From Clostridia bacterium (GTDB taxonomy: Bacteria > Bacillota_A > Clostridia > Christensenellales > Aristaeellaceae), in NCBI GenBank assembly GCA_017432405.1, contig JAFRJF010000084.1, forward strand, positions 1 to 38,266: DNA of 38,266 bases. The letters run 5' to 3'. Both the position numbers and the translations under genes were made by a program. Below are positions 7,833 to 33,423 of this stretch, one piece after another. How positions within the stretch are numbered: the first letter of the stretch is position 1; each line of letters opens with the position of its first letter. Under the pieces are notes generated by a model. It was not told where the DNA came from. It searched no databases and worked only from the letters and a program-made list of their open reading frames with translations.

Positions 7833-10800
7833 TCAGTCGAGCGCCCCGAGAATTTCCTTCCATCGGGTATTGACCGACTTCTGTGCCGCCTTCAACGCCT
7901 TCTCCAGCATGGCCGCCTTCTCCTCATCGGTGGCCCGCTGGTAGGCCGCGCTGCGCATGGTCTCCTTCAGGGCCGCATACGACGCTTGGCCGCGCTCCTG
8001 GGAGAACTCCGTGTACTGCCGGGCGTTCATGGTGAACTTCTGGCCGCCGACGGTGAAGTACTTGTTGCCATCGCTGGGCAGGAAGTCCACGCCGCCGGTG
8101 CTTTCTACCAACCGGATAAGCTCATCGTCCACCACATCCCGATTGGTGATCTTGATATTGGTGGGCAGGATGAGCTTGTTGAACACATCCAGGAGATACT
8201 CGCCAAATGTGTCTTTCACATCCGTGCGGCCCCACACATCCACATCCGGCTGGAGGACCGTCCCGAGACCGGGCACCTTCTTCGCAAGGCTTCGGGCATA
8301 GTAGTCCAGGTTGCTCCCCAGCGGAGAGGTGGCGTCGCTCTTGGTCGTCCGGCGTACCGGGTCGGCAAGCTGGCCCAGCTTGCTGGTGACGGTCGGGAGA
8401 TACTGGCTCCCGTAGTTCTCCGCAGCCGTGAGGATCGTGTTCCCCAGCGCCCCGCCGATGCCGTTGTTGTTGTAGTTCTGGAGGGCGCTGTTCAGGCTGG
8501 ACATGAAGCTCATCTCCATGAACGGGTTGAGCGTTCCGGCCATCGTGTCCGTGAAGGTGGACAGGTCGAAGGAGCTGCCGTCGTTCCGATCCAGCGCCTC
8601 CATGAGCGCGACGCCCATGAACAGGGGGATGGTGGCCGGGGCAATGGCGCTCATGTTGATAGATACATCGCCGAATTTCAGGCTGTAGGTCTGGTCGCCA
8701 GTGTCCTCCAGATAGGTCTCGTACTTCTTCTTATCCTCGCCGCCAGCGCGGATCACGCCAGCCTTTGCCAGGAACATACCGAGGGCCATGAGTGCCGTGC
8801 CGGTGATGCCGGAGGACAGGTTGTCAATGGCCTGCGCCGTCGTGACCTTCCCCTTCTTCACGCCGTTCGTGAGCTGGGCGATGCCCATGATGATCCCGGC
8901 GGGGCTGTACTCGATGCCCCGCTTGGCGATGTTGATGGGCGTTTTCTTGAAGGGCATTACGCCCTCTACCAGCAGGCGGCCGAAGGTGCCGGAATTGCTG
9001 ATCCTGTTCAGCATGGTCGCCAGGCTGGAGGCATCCCGGAACGTAGCCTTCCACGCCTGGTTGCTGGCCCACTCCACGGCTGCGTTCATCTGCGCCTGCG
9101 TGATGGCCGTGAACTCGCCCTTGGCATTGACCTTCCCGGCCTCACCCTTCTCGTTCAGGGTGTACCCCTGGGCCTTCATGTACTGCATGAGGGCGTTCTT
9201 GTAGGCGGGGCGGATGAAGGCAAGGTCCTCGCCCTCCAGGGCGTTAAAGTTGAACTTTGCCAGGGCATTGAGCCATTTAGTGTCGAAGCTCCTCATGTTC
9301 TGCTTCACAAAGGTCTCAAACCCCAGCTTGCCGCCACCCTGGAGGTTCCGCTGCTGATCCTCAAAGGAGGCCTGGGCGAAGCCACTCCAGGTGCTGCGAT
9401 CCTTCGCAGTCAGGATGGCATGGGAGCGATCCTCCTGCTTCACGCCGAGCGCCTTTTCAACGCCGGTAGCCACCGCGTCCTTGGCCGTGTTCAATCCGGC
9501 CATGAGCACGTTGCCCGTGATGTTGCGGAAGTGCGTGGTCGGGTTCGCCAGCATGGAGAAGTAGCGCCAGTTGGAGGCCCGGTCCGTGAAGGTCAGGGGA
9601 ATCTGCTCACCGATGTACTTGGCGACGGCTTCCTCGGCCTTCGTGATCTCCGCCGTAGTCTGTGCCTCGGCGAGCTGCTGCATGAGCGCCGGGTCAACGG
9701 TGATCTTCAGCATCTTGCCATCGGCGATCTGGTCCGAGTACTTGGCGTTCAGCCGGTCCACCACCTTCTGCATATACCAGGCGGATCCTACGCCGCCCAG
9801 CTCTTTCAATGCGGAGAATATCTGCACGGACTGTCCGGCTTCGGTTGCCAGGAGCTGGAGGTCGGTGGCGATATCCAGCACCGCCGCCTTGTCGCCGCGG
9901 TTCGCGGCTTCGGCCAGAAGCTGGAGGCCTATGGCGTTCGTCTTGGCCCCGAACTTGCCCTCCTTTACCATGTCGTGGAACTCGGCTTGGGCCTGTGTGA
10001 TCTGCCGCTGCGCGATGTAGCTGCGGGCACGGTCCATAGCCTCCTGGTTGGAGAGCTGCGTGTAGCTCATCCAGTCGCCGTCGGCGATCCGCTGCTGCAA
10101 GTCGGCCACCATGTCGTCCGCCGCCTTGTTGGATTCCAGGAAGCTCCGGGCAAAGTCGCTCACCCGCTTATCCTCGCTGACCCGTTCCGGCACCTGGATA
10201 TCGCGGGCGCGGGGGTTCATGCCCTGCGGCTTCGCCCCGTACTGCTGCACCAGGTCGTTATAGGAATTGCCGGTCGCATATCGAAGCTCGTTCCTGGCGG
10301 TGTTCCCGCGTTGGCTCAACGGGATGATGTTGCCATTGTTGTCGTAGGTAATGGCGTCGGCGGACTTGATATAGTTTGGGTTGAACGAGACCGTATCCGT
10401 TGCATTCCTCGGCCCACCGTCGCGCACATTGCGGACAATGGTGCCATCGTAACCGGCTTCCCTGTCACGAGCAGCCAGCGCGTCCGTGCTGGTAGTCTCC
10501 GCCTCCGGGAACAGCTCGGGGGAAACATACCGCCCGTTCTTGTCCCTGACACCAACCTTATCCAGCACCGCGCCGCCTTCGCCGTCCCACTCTGCGTAAT
10601 CCATGAAGAACTCGGCCACATCAGACTTCGGCCCAAACAATTCCGTAAAAGCGTTTTCCAGCTTCCAGGAATAGTCGAAGTCGTCCTCGGATGTGAATGT
10701 GACAGTCTTAGTGTTGCGCTCGGCTGCGGACGAGCTCTCCGCGTCCACAGATTCGTCAATGGGGTACGCAGACAGTGTGAACGATCCGCTCTCCCCGGCA

Positions 10801-13800
10801 TCAGGGGTAACCTCGATCCGGTACAGGGTGACACCCTTGGGGCCGTTCAAGTGAATTTTGTCCCACTCGTCGCCCCTGGCGTTGTACTCATTCGCATTGT
10901 CGAAGCGGACGAACAGGTCCAGGATTCTCCCGGCAAACGGGTCGTTGATGCTGTTGTAGATGTTCTGCGGATTTCCGCCGATCATCCGGGCAGCCTTCCT
11001 CTTGGCTGCGTCTGCCAGTGTAGTAAGCTCTGTGCTGTCCGCAAAAATATCGCCCGTGTTGACATCTCGCAACGCCCAGTGATGCTCCCGGCCTTTGCCG
11101 GGTTCCGTGAAGGTGTTGCCTTCATCGTCCATGTAGTACGATTCGGCCATAAGGTTCAAGCCTCGGCCAATGCGCTGGGCCACTCCGTCCGCAAACTCTT
11201 GGAGCACGGGCATCTCGTCGCCATACGAGAGGGGCTTGGTTTTCAGATCCTCCCTCGCGTAGCTGTGCGTGTACTCGGACGCCTGTGCGGTGGAGATGTC
11301 CGGACTGGCGAACATTCCGCTGGCCTTGAACTTGTCCATGTTTACTTCGGTCCAGGAGCCGGTGGCCTCCGGTTCACCACGATACACGTGCATCCAGCCG
11401 TTGCGCTCGTACATCTCGCGCACCATACGCCCGGCTGTCTCCCTGTCCCCGGACATGGCTGCCCGCATATAGGCCTCGTCCTGCTCGGCGGTCACGCCGG
11501 TGTTCGGGTTTGCCTGGCCTACATAATTCCCGCCCTGGCCGAATCGCTCAACGTACTCGTCGTAAGTGAGACCGGTAGCATAACGCCGATTTTCGGGGTT
11601 GACAGGGTTCCCGTCAGATGGTAGAGTACCAGTAGAAGCAGTCTCCAGACTATTGGCGCCAGCGTTCGCGTTGCCCAGTAAGGGAGACTGCTTCGTTTCC
11701 TTTTCCGCGAAGCTTGTAGGCTCAACCTTTACAACATCATAAAACAGGGCTTCGCCATTTCTGAGGTTTGCAATCACGACCTCTGCCGTATAGTCATTAC
11801 TTCCAATGCGAAGGAGAACGTTTCCGCGGGCAAAGCCGGTGATGTCGTCCTTGCGTTCGTGATCCGGCGCTTCATTTACATAGTCAGTCGATGCCTGCGT
11901 TATTTCGTCAATATTGGTAGAAGCACGTAGCTTGTCCGCGTACACATCGGGGGAGACACGATTGAGCCTATCTGTATCGTTGCCCCTCGTGTATTCGTTT
12001 GCGCTTTTCCCGGTCACATCTATATGCTGGCCGTTTACATCAAACCCGCCCTTGAAGCGTTTTTTGATTTCTGCCGCAACGGTTTTCTGCCACTGGTCCT
12101 GCGGAACACCGTCCAAAATGTCCTCGTCAATCTGGACGAATGGGGCGTTGTCCGTCGTTTTCCTGATCGAATAACTGATGTCACCGTCTCGCGCAATGCT
12201 GGCCGGGTTCATGTTGGCCGCACGGAACGCCTTGGCATACATACGCTCGGCGTTCAGGATCGCCAATGCTTCCGCGCTGCCCTTCTGCCTGCGGAGCTTT
12301 CCACGGTCAATGACATAGCGTAGCCAGTTATACAGCCGTGCCGCTGCGCCGCCCTGCTCCCGGACAAAGGAATCAATAGCCGTCTGCGAGGTGAACAGCT
12401 TATCCTCCGCGAACTTCGCGGCAAGCTCCATCTTCGCGTTCTGGTATCGCTCCTCGGCGGTGTTGCCAAGGCTGATGCCCTTTGCGGCCCGCTCCTGGAT
12501 GATGTGCTGGATGGCGTTGTTGTAGCCATTGGTTCCCATGTCGTTCATCTGGATGCGGGTCACGGCGTTCAAGTACTCGCTGTAGAACTTGCTGCCCTCG
12601 ATGTAGTGGGACCACTCGTGACGCAAGAGCCAAAAGCCCGGATTGCTGGCAAGGTCAGCTGCCTCCGCGCCGGTGATGTTGGCGCGGTTAATAGTGATCC
12701 TGCCGGTACTCTTGTCGAACCATGCGTCGCCTACGTTGTCGGGATCGTCAATGAAGTCGATGCCATACCGGAAACCGACCCGCTTGGCAATCCTCTGAAC
12801 ATCAGCCACTTCCGCATCCGTGAGTGCGCGGGTGTCGGGTACGTGCTCTCGCTGCTGATCCGGCGCTTGGGCGATCTGTCCCTCCACCGTTGCGGTGATT
12901 GGCCGCTCGATCGGGGCGGTCGCTTCGATCTCCGCATTGGCCGCCGCTTCCGCCGTCAGGTCCACGGTGTCGCCGTTCTGCCGGGCGCGGGCGTGGTTGG
13001 CGTTGAGGGTGTCGTAGTCGCGGGCATTGGCTGCGCTCTCGTTGCGGAGGTACACAGCCGCGTAATGCTCGGCCAAGGCCGCCTGGATATCGCCCCGCTG
13101 GGCCTGGGCGTTCAGTATGCGCTGCACACCTTCGGCTGTCGCCTTGGCGATGGCAGCGTCCCGTTCGGCCTTGGTGTTCTCCAGCGTGGTCTCCGCCGCC
13201 GAAAGCTGGTTGGTGAGGTTGGCGATCTTCGCCGCGTCGTTGCTGTTGTTCGCGTCCAGGGCGGCCAGCTTCCCGCGCAGGCCATCGGCCACCTTTTGGG
13301 CGTTGTCCACCTTGCCGTCCCACTTGGCCTGTAGCTTCTGCAAGTCCTGATTCACGGCGGAGACAACCTTGCCTTCGTCCACGATATCAAGCTGCATCAT
13401 CAGGTTGGCGAACTCAGACAGGGACTTGGCCTTGATGGACCCGTTGCGCCATTTCTCCTGATCCGCTTCCGAGGCGTTGTCCCACCAGGACTTCGCCACG
13501 GCATAGTCCAGGATGCTCCCCTTGATCTTGCCGTTGCTCTCGTAGTAGTCCTGGAGGATGGACCCCTCGTTGATGCTCCCGGCACTGATCCCAGCACCCA
13601 GGAAACCGGTCAAGAAGCCCATGCCTGCCTGCTCCGCCCATTCCTCGGCGCTCCATTCCGTGTCCTTGCCCCAGTCGCTATGAATCTTCCAGAAGGTCTC
13701 CGCCAGGTAGCTGGCCGTTTCCTCTGTCGCCTCACCGAGACCGGCGACGAGCATATTGATGACGCGGGCCTTGGCGACCACTCCGGCGTTCCTCCAGATG

Positions 13801-16800
13801 TTCGCGCCGTCCCACAGCATCTTGCCGAAGGCTTCCTGTCCCAGCACGTTCCCCCACAGCTTGTCGAAGTTGAGACCCTCCAACACGCCCTCCAGGGTGC
13901 CGGTCACGAGCGCGTAGGCTGTGGCCTCACCGTTGCCCGCGCCCATCATCTTGGCCTCCTCGAAGCCGTTGCCGATGGCGCTGACGACGAAGGGAGAAGC
14001 CTTGATGAAGTCCAGGGCGAAGCCTGCGATCTTCTGCACGGCTGCGCTGCCTGCGCTCCCCGCGGCGACGGAGGAAAGTCCCGTGACGCCGCCGACACCC
14101 TCACCGATGGCTCCGCCGATGCTGCCCAGGGCGTACATCTTCACCATCTCGGAGGTGGCGTCGCTGGCGATCCTGGCGATGGCAGACCCGTTGATGTTGT
14201 CGGTCACGTTGCCGAACCGGGCCACCTCGTCGTTGGCCTCCACGACCCGCTGCGTCACATCCCACAGCTCGTCCTTGCCGGTCACCCAGGTGCCGATCAT
14301 GTCCGCCGTGCCGATGGCACCGGAGGCAATGCTCGTGGCGACGGTGGGGAGTACCGCGAGGAACTGCTGGCCCCAGGTCTGCCCGGCGGTCCGGTATACA
14401 CCGGGGTCCAGCTTCCAGTTGTAGTCCTTGAATACCTCCGCCTGGCCTTCTGTGCCAAGGTCGTCCCACATTTCGCTGGCAATCGCGGCCTTCTCCTCGT
14501 CCGAGGCCTCATCCCAAAAGGCGCGTTGTTCGCCCTTTTCGGCCTCGAAGTACTGGGGCACATACCGCTCCTTGTAGATGGCTGCATGGAAGGCCTCGCT
14601 GTCGTATGCCTCAATCTCGTCCTGATACCCGAGAGCACACGCCGCATTGAAGGCCTCCAGCTCGGTCATCTCCCCGCTTGCCACCTGCTCCTGCATCCAC
14701 TCGCGGACGATCTCATACTCCCCTACATCCAAGGGCACACCGTCGCCTTTGGTGAAGGTGTCAATGAGCAGGTCCTCTGCTTTGCTTAGGGCTTCACCTG
14801 TGGAATATATACCGTTCTTTTTCTTCCCAAGATTGGCTGCCAGCGCCGTAATAGCCGCGCCGGGATTCACCAGCCCCATAATCAGATCGGCCAACACATC
14901 CTTGCGAGAGACTTTAACGGGCTTATACTCCACATCGCCGATCTCGTGGGTGTCGCCGAAAGAACGGCCCGCCCCGCCGCCGCTGAAGGTGGGAGCTTCC
15001 GACGGCGTGTTGGCGGACCGCTGGGACTGGCCGTACCCGGACCAGTTATACCCAGCGTTCCCGGAGACGGTGACGGGCTTGTCGTTGCTGTCCTCTACAT
15101 CGTCCAGGGTGTGCATCTCATTCCGCAATCGGTTGAGGAACGTGGTCTTTTGGGTGTCGGTCCAGCCTTCCGTCCACATGGCCGCGCTGCCGGTGAAATC
15201 GCCGTCCATAGAGAAGCCCAGGTCCACGAGCGCACGGCGGGCCGTGCCCGCGCCAGCCCAGCCCTGATTTGCCACGCCCTTTGCGATGCCGAACAGGACA
15301 TCCGGGGAAACGCTGCTGCCAACGCCGTCAATGGAATCCGTGATGATCGTCATGGCCTGGTTGACGGTATCGGTGTCGGCGGTCTCCTCCTTGCGGGCCT
15401 TTATGAAGGCGGCCAAGCTTGCAGCGTGATCCTTCCCCTTTTCGGCGGAGGTGCTGCTGTTGTTCTTGACGGTGTACCCGCCAACCGCTGCCGAGATTTC
15501 AGGGAATTCGGGCATATTCCCGTCCATTGCCTGGACGGAATACCCGGCGATCAGCTCCTTCTTGGCTCGTTCAAGGGTGCTCCGGGGGACGCCGAGGTCG
15601 TCATAGTACGCAAGCGCAGCCTTCACGTTGTCGGCGGTGATGCCGCCATGCTCGGTCATGTATCGCTCGACGCCGGAGATGACCTCGAAGGAGGAAAGCT
15701 CTGTCGTGTGCGTCTGCTCCCGGCGGGTCTGCTCGGTGGCCTGGTTCGCGGTCCTGGCCTCGTAGTACGCCGTACCGATGGCCCGCGCCTCTTTGCCGGA
15801 CTTCCCGGCCTTCAGCTGCCGCATTGCCTCTTTGACAAACTTATCGGCGATACCGTGGGCAAACATATCCGCGAACATCTGGCCGTGGGTCGCCGTCGGG
15901 TACATATCCTGATACCGCTTCACGAAGTCATCAACGCCGGACTGGTCCTCAATGCTGTCGCTGTGCTTGCTGGTGACGGTATAAAACGCCTTCTCACGCC
16001 GCTCGTCCTCCCGCATGGCAATCTCGTCCAGGGCCTTCGCTACAGTGTAGCCGTCGCCCAGGTCAGCCCCGGCGTAGTACTGTTGGTAGTAGCTGTCGTA
16101 TTTGGAGGCAAAGTCGTCATAGGAGAAGGCGTCGTACCGAGCGTAATCCTCGGCGGTGCTGTCCGTCTTCATACCGGCGGCGAAGGCCTTGCCGCGCTCG
16201 GCCACATAGTCCTTTTTCGGGTCGATCTCGGCGGTGGCGGTCCTGGGCTTGAACAGCCCACGGATGCCGTCATAGACAAATTTGCCGTCGTCGTCCTTGC
16301 GGTCAAGCTCCCCGAAGAAGGCGTCGGCGTACCACTTGGAGCCGGTCTGTGTGATTCCCGTCTCCTCGTCCGTGTACTCCTCGTCGTCGTTCTTGAAGCC
16401 GCGCAGCCGAAGGTTGGTCCACTCCCCGGCCACGTTTCGGTAGAAGCCGTCGATCCCCAGGTAGTTGTTGTACCGCCCAGCGTACTTCGCCATCTCAGCG
16501 GCGGAGGGCAGGCCCCGGGCCTGGAGATCATCGTCCAGCTCGGTGTCCGTGTACTTGGCCGCCAGCGCCGTGGGCATGAGGCCCCGGGCCTTGCGCCGCT
16601 GGTCCTCGGCGGTGTCCGTGTAGGTCCAGTCCTGCTTGTACAGGTCCTTGATCTTCGTCCAGGCCCCGGCAGAAACGGTGTTCCCGTACACTTCGGAGAT
16701 GCCGCCGGTGTGCCACTGGTTGTAGCTCTCCAGGTACTTCTCCAGATTCTTCTCGGACGGGAGCCCGAGCTCGGCGAGCTGCCGGTCCACGTTGCTGTTC

Positions 16801-17060
16801 TTGTAGGTCTTGAGCGCGGAGGCACTGAGCTGGCCGTTCCGCTTCGCAAGCTGGTCCGCATCGTCGAGGCCGTAGGAGCCAGCCATGTCTTGCTTGTACC
16901 GGCTCTTGACCCAGTTCACCGTGTTGTTGTCCAGCGAATACTGCTTGCCGGACGTGCCGGTGATAATCATGCTGGGGCTCTGGGTATGCGTAGTCCGAGT
17001 CGGCGAAGGGCTGGACGGGGTCATAGTCTGTCCGTTGGGGTTTTTAGTGAAAAAGCTCAT
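7833..17060 (-). CDS. giant polyvalent protein (zincin, BECR/LPD3-like, ART-like, LPD38-like), probable ejected virion protein
   Basis: This encodes 3075 residues, one quarter of the window; AGGGGG lies 8 nt before the ATG. N-terminal 86-residue repeats (YKQD at 55 and 141; GLPS at 99 and 183) precede unrecognised sequence. Residues ~895-1170 are Gly/Ala-rich and membrane-like; ~1237-1310 is coiled coil. H1481-E-W-S-H1485 is a zincin HExxH, with a downstream Glu motif (KMELAAKFAED). Residues ~1674-1785 resemble the BECR/LPD3 fold. Residues ~1885-2250 resemble the ADP-ribosyltransferase of polyvalent proteins (HVYRGE at 1891; SFNPNYIKSADAITYDNNGNI). From ~2490 an LPD38-like region (LANPTTHFRNITGN) has hydrophobic helices. 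Such proteins enter the cell with the DNA and act as effectors. Its place at the end of the late operon fits an ejection role; virion location is inferred. Confidence 0.8.
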   Translation of the reverse strand: MSFFTKNPNGQTMTPSSPSPTRTTHTQSPSMIITGTSGKQYSLDNNTVNWVKSRYKQDMAGSYGLDDADQLAKRNGQLSASALKTYKNSNVDRQLAELGLPSEKNLEKYLESYNQWHTGGISEVYGNTVSAGAWTKIKDLYKQDWTYTDTAEDQRRKARGLMPTALAAKYTDTELDDDLQARGLPSAAEMAKYAGRYNNYLGIDGFYRNVAGEWTNLRLRGFKNDDEEYTDEETGITQTGSKWYADAFFGELDRKDDDGKFVYDGIRGLFKPRTATAEIDPKKDYVAERGKAFAAGMKTDSTAEDYARYDAFSYDDFASKYDSYYQQYYAGADLGDGYTVAKALDEIAMREDERREKAFYTVTSKHSDSIEDQSGVDDFVKRYQDMYPTATHGQMFADMFAHGIADKFVKEAMRQLKAGKSGKEARAIGTAYYEARTANQATEQTRREQTHTTELSSFEVISGVERYMTEHGGITADNVKAALAYYDDLGVPRSTLERAKKELIAGYSVQAMDGNMPEFPEISAAVGGYTVKNNSSTSAEKGKDHAASLAAFIKARKEETADTDTVNQAMTIITDSIDGVGSSVSPDVLFGIAKGVANQGWAGAGTARRALVDLGFSMDGDFTGSAAMWTEGWTDTQKTTFLNRLRNEMHTLDDVEDSNDKPVTVSGNAGYNWSGYGQSQRSANTPSEAPTFSGGGAGRSFGDTHEIGDVEYKPVKVSRKDVLADLIMGLVNPGAAITALAANLGKKKNGIYSTGEALSKAEDLLIDTFTKGDGVPLDVGEYEIVREWMQEQVASGEMTELEAFNAACALGYQDEIEAYDSEAFHAAIYKERYVPQYFEAEKGEQRAFWDEASDEEKAAIASEMWDDLGTEGQAEVFKDYNWKLDPGVYRTAGQTWGQQFLAVLPTVATSIASGAIGTADMIGTWVTGKDELWDVTQRVVEANDEVARFGNVTDNINGSAIARIASDATSEMVKMYALGSIGGAIGEGVGGVTGLSSVAAGSAGSAAVQKIAGFALDFIKASPFVVSAIGNGFEEAKMMGAGNGEATAYALVTGTLEGVLEGLNFDKLWGNVLGQEAFGKMLWDGANIWRNAGVVAKARVINMLVAGLGEATEETASYLAETFWKIHSDWGKDTEWSAEEWAEQAGMGFLTGFLGAGISAGSINEGSILQDYYESNGKIKGSILDYAVAKSWWDNASEADQEKWRNGSIKAKSLSEFANLMMQLDIVDEGKVVSAVNQDLQKLQAKWDGKVDNAQKVADGLRGKLAALDANNSNDAAKIANLTNQLSAAETTLENTKAERDAAIAKATAEGVQRILNAQAQRGDIQAALAEHYAAVYLRNESAANARDYDTLNANHARARQNGDTVDLTAEAAANAEIEATAPIERPITATVEGQIAQAPDQQREHVPDTRALTDAEVADVQRIAKRVGFRYGIDFIDDPDNVGDAWFDKSTGRITINRANITGAEAADLASNPGFWLLRHEWSHYIEGSKFYSEYLNAVTRIQMNDMGTNGYNNAIQHIIQERAAKGISLGNTAEERYQNAKMELAAKFAEDKLFTSQTAIDSFVREQGGAAARLYNWLRYVIDRGKLRRQKGSAEALAILNAERMYAKAFRAANMNPASIARDGDISYSIRKTTDNAPFVQIDEDILDGVPQDQWQKTVAAEIKKRFKGGFDVNGQHIDVTGKSANEYTRGNDTDRLNRVSPDVYADKLRASTNIDEITQASTDYVNEAPDHERKDDITGFARGNVLLRIGSNDYTAEVVIANLRNGEALFYDVVKVEPTSFAEKETKQSPLLGNANAGANSLETASTGTLPSDGNPVNPENRRYATGLTYDEYVERFGQGGNYVGQANPNTGVTAEQDEAYMRAAMSGDRETAGRMVREMYERNGWMHVYRGEPEATGSWTEVNMDKFKASGMFASPDISTAQASEYTHSYAREDLKTKPLSYGDEMPVLQEFADGVAQRIGRGLNLMAESYYMDDEGNTFTEPGKGREHHWALRDVNTGDIFADSTELTTLADAAKRKAARMIGGNPQNIYNSINDPFAGRILDLFVRFDNANEYNARGDEWDKIHLNGPKGVTLYRIEVTPDAGESGSFTLSAYPIDESVDAESSSAAERNTKTVTFTSEDDFDYSWKLENAFTELFGPKSDVAEFFMDYAEWDGEGGAVLDKVGVRDKNGRYVSPELFPEAETTSTDALAARDREAGYDGTIVRNVRDGGPRNATDTVSFNPNYIKSADAITYDNNGNIIPLSQRGNTARNELRYATGNSYNDLVQQYGAKPQGMNPRARDIQVPERVSEDKRVSDFARSFLESNKAADDMVADLQQRIADGDWMSYTQLSNQEAMDRARSYIAQRQITQAQAEFHDMVKEGKFGAKTNAIGLQLLAEAANRGDKAAVLDIATDLQLLATEAGQSVQIFSALKELGGVGSAWYMQKVVDRLNAKYSDQIADGKMLKITVDPALMQQLAEAQTTAEITKAEEAVAKYIGEQIPLTFTDRASNWRYFSMLANPTTHFRNITGNVLMAGLNTAKDAVATGVEKALGVKQEDRSHAILTAKDRSTWSGFAQASFEDQQRNLQGGGKLGFETFVKQNMRSFDTKWLNALAKFNFNALEGEDLAFIRPAYKNALMQYMKAQGYTLNEKGEAGKVNAKGEFTAITQAQMNAAVEWASNQAWKATFRDASSLATMLNRISNSGTFGRLLVEGVMPFKKTPINIAKRGIEYSPAGIIMGIAQLTNGVKKGKVTTAQAIDNLSSGITGTALMALGMFLAKAGVIRAGGEDKKKYETYLEDTGDQTYSLKFGDVSINMSAIAPATIPLFMGVALMEALDRNDGSSFDLSTFTDTMAGTLNPFMEMSFMSSLNSALQNYNNNGIGGALGNTILTAAENYGSQYLPTVTSKLGQLADPVRRTTKSDATSPLGSNLDYYARSLAKKVPGLGTVLQPDVDVWGRTDVKDTFGEYLLDVFNKLILPTNIKITNRDVVDDELIRLVESTGGVDFLPSDGNKYFTVGGQKFTMNARQYTEFSQERGQASYAALKETMRSAAYQRATDEEKAAMLEKALKAAQKSVNTRWKEILGALD

Positions 17061-31068: not shown

Positions 31069-31317
31069 TTACGCATAAAAAAAGCCTCCCTCGTTATTCT
31101 TACGGGGGAGGGGTGTCAATGGGTCAATGGCTATCAGCCGTTTCTTCTCGACCTCTTTGCGCTTCGCCGGTGAGGGCCGCGTCATCAGCCCGTAGCGGAA
31201 AGCCTCGCAGTTGTGAACGATGAATCCGCCGTTGATGGCGAAACAGTGCGTACCGTCCACCTCAAGGTTGTACACAGGCTCTTCGCCTATGCGTTTGACT
31301 GATATAACTCTTGCCAT
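31069..31317 (-). CDS. terL: terminase large subunit, C-terminal half: C-intein plus C-extein
   Basis: This encodes 82 residues. The ATG at 31317 is preceded by AGGAG at 9-nt spacing, located inside the HNH gene. Residues 1-36 are a C-intein: block F VYNLEVDGTHCFAINGG and block G FIVHN ending in the His-Asn that cyclises. Cys37 is the +1 nucleophile. The 46-residue C-extein begins CEAFRYGLMTRPS, the conserved end of a TerL nuclease domain. It cannot work alone and should be joined by trans-splicing to the product of 31900-33423. The two halves are in the same frame but separated by a stop and the HNH gene. Confidence 0.9.
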   Translation of the reverse strand: MARVISVKRIGEEPVYNLEVDGTHCFAINGGFIVHNCEAFRYGLMTRPSPAKRKEVEKKRLIAIDPLTPLPRKNNEGGFFYA

Positions 31318-31808
31318 TTTTCTGTTCTCCTGCGCCGTCTCAGCGCACGGGCTTTGCAGTTGTTTCCGCAATACTTCGCACCTTGCATGGCTCTCGATGT
31401 GAACCGCTTGCCACACATCTGGCACGTATACTCTTTGAACGTCGCGTTTTCCCACGCCCTGTTGAGAACGGCGCGGGAAACGTCCCTTGCCTCTTGCGTG
31501 TGATGCCACGCCTCCGTGAGCGGGCGAACCTTTTCGGCAAGCTCCCTCATTCTGGCTCGGTTTTCTTCTTTTCCGCTATGCTGGCTCAAATGGTCGGCGG
31601 CTGGCAACAGCTCAAGGTTCTCGATGCTGTTGTTGCTCCTGTCCTCATCCTTGTGATGGACGTGGTAGCCGTCCGGGATTGGCCCGTTGTGGTACTCCCA
31701 TACGGCGCGGTGAAGCCTGCGCCCGTTGTGCTGAAAGTAGAATCCGCAGAGGTAATAGCGCACGCCATTGAACTCTTGCTTCGTGTCGTCGATAATGATG
31801 GTTTCCAT
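31287..31808 (-). CDS. free-standing HNH homing endonuclease within the split intein locus
   Basis: This encodes 173 residues from ATG 31808 (AAAGGG upstream); an extension upstream to 31925 runs into the N-intein gene and lacks a ribosome site. The HNH_3 core is clear: LHRAVWEYHNGPIP, then GYHVHHKDEDRSNN (His51/His52, Asn60), IENLELLPAADHLSQH. The C-terminus has a zinc-finger-like CQMC/YCGNNC cluster (129, 132, 147, 151) and a run of arginines. It lies between the two halves of TerL in another frame and overlaps the start of the second by 31 nt. It should cut intein-free terL alleles and so spread the locus. Confidence 0.88.
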   Translation of the reverse strand: METIIIDDTKQEFNGVRYYLCGFYFQHNGRRLHRAVWEYHNGPIPDGYHVHHKDEDRSNNSIENLELLPAADHLSQHSGKEENRARMRELAEKVRPLTEAWHHTQEARDVSRAVLNRAWENATFKEYTCQMCGKRFTSRAMQGAKYCGNNCKARALRRRRRTEKWQELYQSNA

Positions 31809-31837
31809 TTGTCTCGCCCTTTCCCGCCCGTTGTTTG

Positions 31838-31897
31838 CCCACAAGAAAAGGAGAGGTGGGCGATACCTCTCCTCGGTTTGCAAGTCCGCTTGTGGGG
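31838..31897 (-). terminator. nested stem-loop and possible terminator between N-intein and HNH genes
   Basis: On the minus strand an inner perfect 9-bp stem AGGAGAGGT/ACCTCTCCT (31873-31865 with 31857-31849; 7-nt loop) is followed by TTTTC. Outer arms CCCACAAG (31896-31889) and CTTGTGGG (31845-31838) can close around it. The element fills most of the 91-nt gap after the N-intein stop. It could terminate or attenuate transcription before the HNH gene, or fold so as to limit HNH translation. Confidence 0.65.
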
Positions 31898-31899
31898 AT

Positions 31900-33423
31900 T
31901 TATACCATAACGATGCTATCCGCATCGGTAAGGTCCTTAACCTGTTTCCATGTCCCGTCCTCCAACAGGACTTTGTGGTCGCCGGTCGCTTTGAACGAGC
32001 CAGCGTCCGTCTGTACTTCGAAAACTTCCGCAGACGCCCGCGTCATGCGACAGTCGTGGAACCAACCAACGGAGCGATTCTTTCCGTTCTCCGTTGTGAC
32101 GATTTCCCCGTCCTTCCCCACGAGCTCGCGGATAGGAACAGGGCCGCTCAATGTTTCAACGAGCGTGTCTCCCGTCAAGCAAGCGTGGTCCTCGCAGTTG
32201 TCGGCCACGTCCTCGTGGTCGTGCTTGTCGTAGGTCAGGAGCGGCAAGGTCCGAATGAGGTCGCGGCAGGTCGAGAATATCTGGACGTAGGGCCGTCCAT
32301 CGGGCGCGACTTGCAGGTTCTCCCTTACGCGCATCCAGCCGTTCATGCGGTCGTTGTCCGCCTTGACGATGGGGACGCCGTTCGCTATGAACGTGTCCGC
32401 CACGGTCTCGCCGCCCATCGCGTCGCGGAGGCCGCGCTTCTGCCACATATCGGGAGAGGCCGCCGTGTACGTGATGTGCTCGGTGAACTGGTTGCCCTGC
32501 TCGTCAAAGGCGACGGAGCGCCGCTTCACGAGCTTCGCCATCTCCGATGCGGCGGTCTGGTTCTGGTAGATTTCCCGGTAGACATAGAGGTGAGAGTCGG
32601 GTGCCACCGCGAACCAGAGCACGCAGCACGGGTCGTTGTAGCCCCAGTCCATCGCACGGAAGCGCCGCCAGTCCCGGGGGATGGGGAACGGTGCGCAGAC
32701 GTGCACGGCCGGGTTGAACTCTGAGAAGTACTGCCCTTCGACGGCGTCCCAGCGCCCGTCAAGGTACGCTTTGCGCAGGTGTTCTGGCAGAGCTTCCAGA
32801 GTCTTGATGTAACCTGGGTTGGTCTCCATGAGGACCGTGTTGTCCGTGACCTTGGCCTGGATGAACACATAATCGTCTGGGTTCTCACCGTGCTCATAGA
32901 TACGGTCGATGAAGAGATGCTTTATGTAGTCATGGCCCGGGCCGCCCGGGTTACAAGTGTAGTAAATCCTCGGCGAGAAGTCCGTCCGCGTGCTTCTGCA
33001 CGACGTCGCTATGTACGTCAGCATACACTCGGTGAACGCGGTCGCCTCCTCGAAGCCGATAACGTCGTACTCCTGGCCCTGGTACTGGTACACGTCGTTG
33101 TCCGTGTCGCAGTAGCCGAGCTTGATGGTGGAGCCGTTCGGGAACGTGAAGGTCTTGTTGTCCTTCGTGTACTTGGCGAAGCCGTTGAGCTCTTTGAGGA
33201 GCGGCTGGGTGTGGTTCCCGTCGAGCTCGGCGAGGGTGCGGCGCAACAGCAGGAGCTTGAGGTGCGGGTAGCGGAGAGCCAGCAGGATGAACTTCCTGCG
33301 CAGGACCCACGACTTGCCGCCGCCCCGGGCGCCGCCGTATGCGATGCGGGGCGCCACCGCCCGGAGAAACAGGTCTTGCTTCGGGTTCGGGACGCCCTCA
33401 AGCCTCAGTGCTTTCTTTGCCAT
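31900..33423 (-). CDS. terL: terminase large subunit, N-terminal half: N-extein plus N-intein
   Basis: This encodes 507 residues from ATG 33423, 1 nt after the preceding stop (coupling; a longer frame to 33537 is unlikely). The ATPase has Walker A GGARGGGKS (30-38) and Walker B-type YDVIGFEEA. The RNase H-like nuclease starts at AMDWGYNDP. The extein ends at EDHA (414); Cys415 (codon 32181-32179) begins a 93-residue N-intein: block A CLTGDTLVE and block B GSFKATGDHKV. The stop follows DADSIVMV, the usual end of a split N-intein. Spliced with the half at 31069-31317 it gives a 460-residue terminase, restoring EDHA-CEAFRYG at the nuclease metal site. TerL drives DNA into the head and cuts it. 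Confidence 0.92.
   Translation of the reverse strand: MAKKALRLEGVPNPKQDLFLRAVAPRIAYGGARGGGKSWVLRRKFILLALRYPHLKLLLLRRTLAELDGNHTQPLLKELNGFAKYTKDNKTFTFPNGSTIKLGYCDTDNDVYQYQGQEYDVIGFEEATAFTECMLTYIATSCRSTRTDFSPRIYYTCNPGGPGHDYIKHLFIDRIYEHGENPDDYVFIQAKVTDNTVLMETNPGYIKTLEALPEHLRKAYLDGRWDAVEGQYFSEFNPAVHVCAPFPIPRDWRRFRAMDWGYNDPCCVLWFAVAPDSHLYVYREIYQNQTAASEMAKLVKRRSVAFDEQGNQFTEHITYTAASPDMWQKRGLRDAMGGETVADTFIANGVPIVKADNDRMNGWMRVRENLQVAPDGRPYVQIFSTCRDLIRTLPLLTYDKHDHEDVADNCEDHACLTGDTLVETLSGPVPIRELVGKDGEIVTTENGKNRSVGWFHDCRMTRASAEVFEVQTDAGSFKATGDHKVLLEDGTWKQVKDLTDADSIVMV

Follow-up and report, generated by a model that had tools for sequence, protein, structure and literature searches.

Split terL intein with an HNH gene between its halves, and a phage intein family at terminase motif III in which the HNH gene lies out of frame

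Fractured genes, which carry split inteins with free-standing endonucleases, were reportedly described by Dassa et al. in 2009, with gp41, NrdA/NrdJ and IMPDH as hosts and Vsr-like endonucleases. Here, we describe a phage terminase large subunit gene (terL) with this arrangement in a 38,266-nucleotide stretch of DNA from a Clostridia bacterium assembly (GCA_017432405.1, contig JAFRJF010000084.1, positions 1 to 38,266 of the forward strand; hereafter the window), together with its relatives. The arrangement was found in the window and in 20 further sense-strand loci among the 90 classified below. In common with fractured genes, the host gene is halved at the usual endonuclease site, an endonuclease gene stands between the halves, and the DNA is phage-like and environmental. 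Unlike them, it is terL that is interrupted, by an endonuclease of the HNH_3 type with zinc fingers instead of a Vsr-like one, and relatives with a nested, out-of-frame HNH gene connect the split state with an unsplit state.

Other close systems are known. In Pseudomonas phage MIJ3, the PolB intein is split and the HNH gene orf154 lies between its halves (PMC6892783). As in the window, split intein halves flank a free-standing HNH gene, but the host is DNA polymerase B, and the available part of the source describes no nested out-of-frame relatives. AceL-TerL, GOS-TerL and Cat-TerL are, like the window intein, naturally split inteins in phage TerL, with splits of 25/104, 37/115 and 30/104 (PMC11766414). 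Compared by split point, they differ from the window intein, which is split 93/36 at the usual site with an HNH gene between, its N-intein of 93 residues lying outside the approximately 25-37 of the atypical split. In the methylases of phages ShiLan and Pacc40 an HNH gene lies out of frame, and the authors find no splicing domain (PMC11855218). Our nested loci likewise hide an HNH gene in another frame of an open host frame, but there a complete intein surrounds the HNH gene, so that splicing would remove the out-of-frame residues; the window is of the split and not the nested kind, with four stops in the frame and an intein present. TaPaz gp49 shares with the window an intein in TerL, at residues 35-388, in a source that calls terminases a common target (PMC8228797); however, this intein lies near the N-terminus, not in motif III, and is not reported as split in the part of the source available. 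New relative to the literature searched is a terL intein family whose HNH gene is out of frame and which connects these states. What is already known comprises fractured genes, a split PolB intein with HNH, TerL inteins split elsewhere and an out-of-frame HNH gene without an intein. An out-of-frame HNH gene inside an intein was not found in the literature searched, and a preprint on actinobacteriophage inteins of 'non-canonical architecture' (10.1101/2025.01.02.630785) may describe one.

Direct reading and translation show that terL in the window consists of two minus-strand genes with the HNH gene between them, and that the insert measures 972 bases. The features are as follows (E, expectation value).

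33423..31900, minus strand: TerL-N, 507 residues, 414 of extein and 93 of N-intein (translation)
32182..33423, minus strand: TerL N-extein of 414 codons, comprising the ATPase domain and the nuclease as far as motif III EDHA (translation, PHROG terminase matches, 96% identity to the intein-free relative L001)
31903..32181, minus strand: N-intein, 93 codons, CLTGDT...DADSIVMV (TIGR01445, E=4.2e-6; translation)
31809..31899, minus strand: spacer from the N-intein stop to the HNH start, containing a hairpin with a T-rich tail that is not above shuffles
31287..31808, minus strand: HNH_3 endonuclease gene, 173 residues (PF13392, E=9.7e-20; PHROG_15471, E=6.5e-33)
31327..31331, minus strand: AGGAG, putative ribosome site of TerL-C, 9 nucleotides before its ATG
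31317..31069, minus strand: TerL-C, 82 residues, 36 of C-intein and 46 of extein (translation)
31210..31317, minus strand: C-intein of 36 codons, which has an ATG of its own and VHN as its last residues (TIGR01443, E=1.3e-6; translation)
31072..31209, minus strand: TerL C-extein, 46 codons from Cys+1 (CEAFRYG...), stop at 31069-31071 (separate C-halves P0001-P0007)

The N-intein opens at Cys415 and ends in IVMV, directly followed by a TAA stop at 31900-31902, and TerL-C overlaps the final 31 bases of the HNH gene. The two TerL halves have a common frame, and the HNH gene alone is in a different one. Comparison with L025, a related locus, places the HNH start at the ATG at 31808 (173 residues) and not at that of the 212-residue open reading frame (ORF) from 31925; zinc-finger cysteines stand at the C-terminal end of the protein. 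The 414 and 46 extein residues add up to 460, the length of L001.

Class 1 inteins have Cys or Ser at position 1, TxxH in block B, a C-terminal HN and Cys, Ser or Thr at +1. All of these are present in the window (C415, TGDH, VHN and Cys+1), and C1, T64, H67 and N301 are invariant in 22 nested relatives. TIGR01445 (intein_Nterm) matched residues 415-486 at E=4.2e-6 and TIGR01443 (intein_Cterm) matched the C-intein at E=1.3e-6, both above the curated cut-offs; Pfam Intein_splicing gave 21.3 and 20.7 bits on the two halves, below its cut-off of 35.8. As in a split intein, there are two separate genes, cut at the usual endonuclease site into 93 and 36 residues. The HNH motif is represented by H51, H52, N60, N64 and H73, invariant among 19 sequences. 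TerL-N matched PHROG_979 (E=2.6e-48) and, above cut-off, PF03237 and PF04466, and TerL-C matched PHROG_28563, whose function is not annotated, at E=2e-12. The profile matches and the uninterrupted 460-residue homologue L001 identify the host as a terminase large subunit.

A TerL-N scan of viral contigs yielded 37 relatives, of which the junction is uninterrupted in 29 and filled by an insert in L025, the other 7 being too short or too distant to read. L001 and L002 are 96% identical to the window protein over residues 1-414 and run on through EDHA/PEAFRYG to a 460-residue protein; an exact empty site in so close a relative speaks for an intein. The +1 position, occupied in the window by the Cys required for splicing, is Pro, Gly or Ala in the six relatives with identities of at least 90%. 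Cys at +1 also occurs in 1 of the 29 uninterrupted loci, the more distant L028. Close TerL lineages include both empty and filled alleles. In L025, N-intein, HNH and C-intein follow one another as in the window, at identities of 44% (TerL), 35% (N-intein), 48% (HNH) and 44% (C-intein).

To position the junction within the nuclease, the TerL of Brochothrix phage BL3 was aligned with the terminase nuclease structure 2wbn (E=7e-57), which we take to be that of phage SPP1. DKDNHTID of 2wbn corresponds to DKDNH/C of BL3, whose C-half continues C-IDATRY. Presumably His400 and Asp403 of SPP1 are active-site residues, and the junction would fall between them. When 75 N-exteins from across the family are compared, Asp259 (motif I) and His413 are the sole residues present in at least 90% of rows. 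PHROG_2 (terminase large subunit) was matched by 59 of the 75 at E 1e-5, and 15 of the 21 PHROGs matched by N-exteins are named terminase large subunit, 6 being unnamed. As judged from these alignments, the junction is in nuclease motif III, between the conserved His and the next Asp/Glu.

Both halves also occur independently elsewhere. A protein search with 9 matches returned separate C-halves (P0001-P0007, 62-98% identity, with P0006 and P0007 starting further upstream) as well as P0008 and P0009, two fragments of this TerL lineage that have no intein, and another with 12 matches returned P0010, a 507-residue N-half with the same end residue and 92% identity over residues 400-507. In addition, P0015-P0017 resemble unsplit mini-inteins without HNH, and P0012 resembles an N-half running into zinc-finger remnants. 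The independent halves, together with the layout of L025, indicate a real split intein and not an assembly fault.

An earlier note on this DNA had proposed a fractured terL with a split intein and an HNH gene between the halves, a proposal borne out by the intein profiles, the exact empty site, the independent halves and L025. Its 93-residue N-intein at Cys415 and 36-residue C-intein from the ATG at 31317 are confirmed by translation, its complete HNH_3 gene in another frame by PF13392 (E=9.7e-20), and its junction at the nuclease motif by the 2wbn alignment and the 75 N-exteins, which put it in motif III. Two checks that it had suggested came out in the same direction: profile searches left both intein parts above the TIGR cut-offs, and comparison of the insertion point with intein-free homologues gave the exact empty site of L001/L002. 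The assembly error that it had named as a possible refutation is opposed by the independent N- and C-halves in other assemblies. It had also held that homologues lacking residues 415-507 would tell against an intein; such homologues were found, but they represent the empty site and support the intein.

To place the window in a wider family, HNH relatives were drawn from phage records and viral contigs. The alignment scan took the best 80 of 519 relatives, so the proportions given here are those of a sample. Profiles of the N-intein, C-intein and HNH were run on six frames of L001-L155 and the window, and an HNH cut at E<1e-6 gave 114 loci; 16 without an intein and 8 on partial contigs were set aside, leaving 90 (L156-L158 and L159-L163 stand outside the classification). 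Near copies occur among the 90, and a filter at 95% HNH identity leaves 75 loci, 57 nested and 18 split. In 67 of the 90, N- and C-intein are read through in a single frame without a break, and the HNH gene lies within that stretch in a different frame (53 at +2, 14 at +1), a state that we call nested. The halves are separate in the others, with a sense HNH gene between them in 21, the window included, and an antisense one in 2 (L046 and L057). These two are IMG/VR 3300028887_000019 and 3300028914_000361, each with a split terL-type intein. An HNH in frame within an unbroken intein occurs in 0 of the 90, a figure valid only for close relatives of the window HNH, since L061 and L062, with an in-frame HNH at a domain E=5e-6, are excluded by the cut (their host is ATP-binding by its GKGKT motif, not terL). 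In phage CL2 (L038), HNH and N-half have the same frame, yet are separate ORFs.

Nearly all nested inteins (66/67) have Cys first and Asn last before Cys, Ser or Thr, and L106 has only a partial N-intein match. Cultured phages are found in both classes: Lactobacillus phage CL2 is split, and Tetrasphaera phage TJE1 (L069), LS06 (L064) and Highwayman (L071) are nested. In the latter three, the intein within the annotated terL conceals an HNH gene that is read in a different frame and is missing from the annotation. Of the 16 loci without an intein, 6 (L067, L068, L072 and L139-L141) have an unbroken motif III with a free HNH gene 98-150 bases downstream, suggesting that this HNH family settles at the motif III site also without an intein. 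BL3 (L039, HM144386.1), which is not among the 114 loci, has only HNH zinc-finger remnants between the halves, and its split intein persists. At 1936-2607 of this phage, gp2 and gp3 resemble split-intein TerL halves, and gp3, at 98 residues, has the length of PHROG_28563.

The nested state was examined by shuffling the HNH codons synonymously, 1000 times for each of the 87 sense loci whose HNH and N-intein frames differ. The intein frame is free of stops through the HNH gene in 67 of them, against 4.4 expected, whereas in the other 20, all split, it contains 3 to 31 stops, near the shuffled means (window, 3 vs 5.9). For the 14 nested loci at +1, a mean of 9.8 stops is expected in each and none is present. 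Nested loci with HNH identities of 0.55-0.97 were further compared in pairs, which share members and are not independent. For 70 pairs at one offset, mean identity is 0.65 in the HNH frame and 0.39 in the intein frame, and HNH codon positions 1/2/3 account for 2873/2487/5396 differences; 36 pairs at the other offset agree (0.64 vs 0.37; 1815/1500/3111). The HNH frame is thus conserved over the intein frame: the HNH protein is under selection, and the intein frame is held open with little conservation of its sequence. Pfam Intein_splicing was above its cut-off in all four nested inteins tested. In the model of the nested intein of L079 (mean predicted local distance difference test score, pLDDT, 66), the blocks at residues 1-80 and 271-301 have pLDDT >90 and the linker is of low confidence; its best PDB matches are DnaB and DnaE inteins.

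In the split state, N and C have the same frame in 16 of the 21 sense-split loci, against 7 expected, and in 13 of 17 with near copies removed, the HNH frame varying. Most split C-halves have a start codon at or adjoining the first C-intein residue, with a ribosome site, and none was found in L038 and L149. The shared N/C frame is compatible with loss of the open frame after the C-half had gained a start. Ribosome sites of at least 5 bases were found in 13 of 17 split loci (4.2 expected). A tree of the concatenated sequences of the 75 loci requires 2 changes between contiguous and split. Its split forms fall into a group of 10 rows with a Shimodaira-Hasegawa-like approximate likelihood-ratio test (SH-aLRT) support of 97 and one of 8 rows with the window at 83, of which 7 group at 96. 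The HNH-only tree gives 6 changes with weak support, and as the two counts differ, many independent origins are not claimed.

The explanation that best joins these results, to which we assign a probability of roughly 85%, is a homing element of terL motif III made of an intein and an out-of-frame HNH gene, whose halves splice in trans in the window and whose split form derives from the nested one. The element would occupy nuclease motif III of phage terL, with the intein as its splicing part and the HNH_3/zinc-finger endonuclease as a gene of its own, out of frame, where ordinary inteins hold an in-frame endonuclease domain. TerL-N and TerL-C would be made separately, and their intein halves would associate and splice in trans to yield the 460-residue TerL. 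The HNH protein would cut intein-free terL at motif III, and repair would copy the whole insert. Because splicing would remove a meaningless linker, the absence of stops would be all that the host frame has to maintain. The split state would come from an unsplit intein with a nested out-of-frame HNH gene: once the C-intein had gained its own start codon and a ribosome site, the frame over the HNH gene would no longer have to stay open and would fill with stops. More generally, these loci probably represent a widespread phage intein family centred on terL motif III, with HNH overprinted on a disposable linker and fractured genes as a later stage in which the second half has gained its own start.

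The anatomy, homology, site, empty site, conservation and, in relatives, open-frame constraint were observed directly, and several points weigh against building the homing element on them. Splicing, cutting, homing and copying of the insert are carried over from established intein and homing biology. The AlphaFold model of intact TerL is poor over the nuclease part (mean pLDDT 63, residues 357-460 under 50), so the junction is placed by sequence only. A co-conversion track beside the insert was not seen, DNA identity to L001 being 89% on both sides without a trend. Many +2 loci are individually not significant in the shuffle test (up to P0=0.56, in L069). Ribosome sites of at least 5 bases precede 10 of 42 nested HNH genes at +2 (3.9 expected; a start candidate was available in 42 of 46 +2 loci) and 1 of 11 at +1 (0.9 expected), so most nested HNH genes are without a clear one. 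Both trees are unrooted and do not show a change from nested to split, a direction that we infer.

Four other accounts deserve consideration. One, suggested in part by the earlier note, reads the split as a control that would keep nuclease and packaging off until both halves are made and joined, delaying DNA cutting. It is true that the motif III His is separated from the next Asp/Glu, so that the N-half alone should lack a complete nuclease, and that split forms make up two well-supported groups (SH-aLRT 97 and 96), so the state lasts. However, 67 of the 90 relatives are unsplit and very close relatives have no intein, and the halves adjoin in the same direction in overlapping genes without a sign of separate timing. 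With most relatives unsplit, regulation is not needed to explain the intein, and the delay appears improbable to us. An HNH protein of HK97 is reported to work with terminase at cos (PMC10448857), and the window HNH protein might similarly be a packaging helper and not a homing endonuclease. The free genes of this family that stand next to an intact motif III, in 6 of 16 intein-free loci, would suit such a role, but the window gene sits inside an intein, the close relatives L001-L006 do without HNH, and BL3 retains its split intein with nothing but zinc-finger remnants of HNH, all of which makes a helper unlikely.

The remaining two accounts concern whether and how the halves are joined. If terL were decaying, its halves no longer joining and the phage dead or rescued, the stops that break the frame would be expected, and the joined product of the homing element is itself inferred; yet the catalytic intein residues are intact in both halves, the same ends are kept in C-halves (62-98%) and an N-half (92%) elsewhere, and L025 keeps the layout at 44% TerL identity. 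We consider decay very unlikely. Joining at the RNA level or by recoding of stop codons would agree with the common frame of the N and C halves, but it is highly improbable given the conservation of intein residues at both junctions. The N frame contains four stops before the C-intein (two TGA, one TAA and one TAG), and long ORFs on the minus strand of the window end in all three kinds as well, so the halves are not reunited by recoding. At E 0.1, nothing in Rfam matched the terL region of the window, and in the 16 HNH loci without an intein no match reached the gathering score; no group I intron was thus detected.

This family bears on the origin of natural split inteins and fractured genes. 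As one family spans free HNH genes, nested and sense-split forms, split forms with a reversed HNH gene and a split form with HNH remnants (BL3), the route between them is testable. If the homing-element explanation is true, it offers a way in which natural split inteins could arise from contiguous ones. It would also mean that many overlapping genes exist one of whose products is nothing but a linker to be discarded, explain why some TerL annotations are truncated or oversized and some HNH genes were missed, and provide new natural split inteins as ligation tools.

Several minor observations were made along the way. Searches with the C-half pointed to intein-like regions in Bacillus phage SP-15 (L040, 2472-3605, a hypothetical protein) and Xanthomonas phage PhiXhv-12 (L041, 2259-3602, a terminase), and to a C-part match in DNA methyltransferases, represented by dmt of Escherichia phage P1 (H8). 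A pattern scan with the window N-intein gave four stretches matching only 9-10 residues, which were taken as chance. The hairpin after the N-intein stop was tried as a terminator and rejected, three such sites being found against 3.0 in shuffles, with a fold no better than in shuffles. Another hairpin followed by seven T lies over the last TerL-C codons just before the portal gene (31075-31110, minus strand; folding energy dG -17.1, z -1.8). The window phage has a P22-type portal. A 3075-residue ORF at 7833-17060 (minus strand) had no PHROG match at E 0.001, and a tRNA-Ser (tga) gene lies at 42-129 on the same strand.

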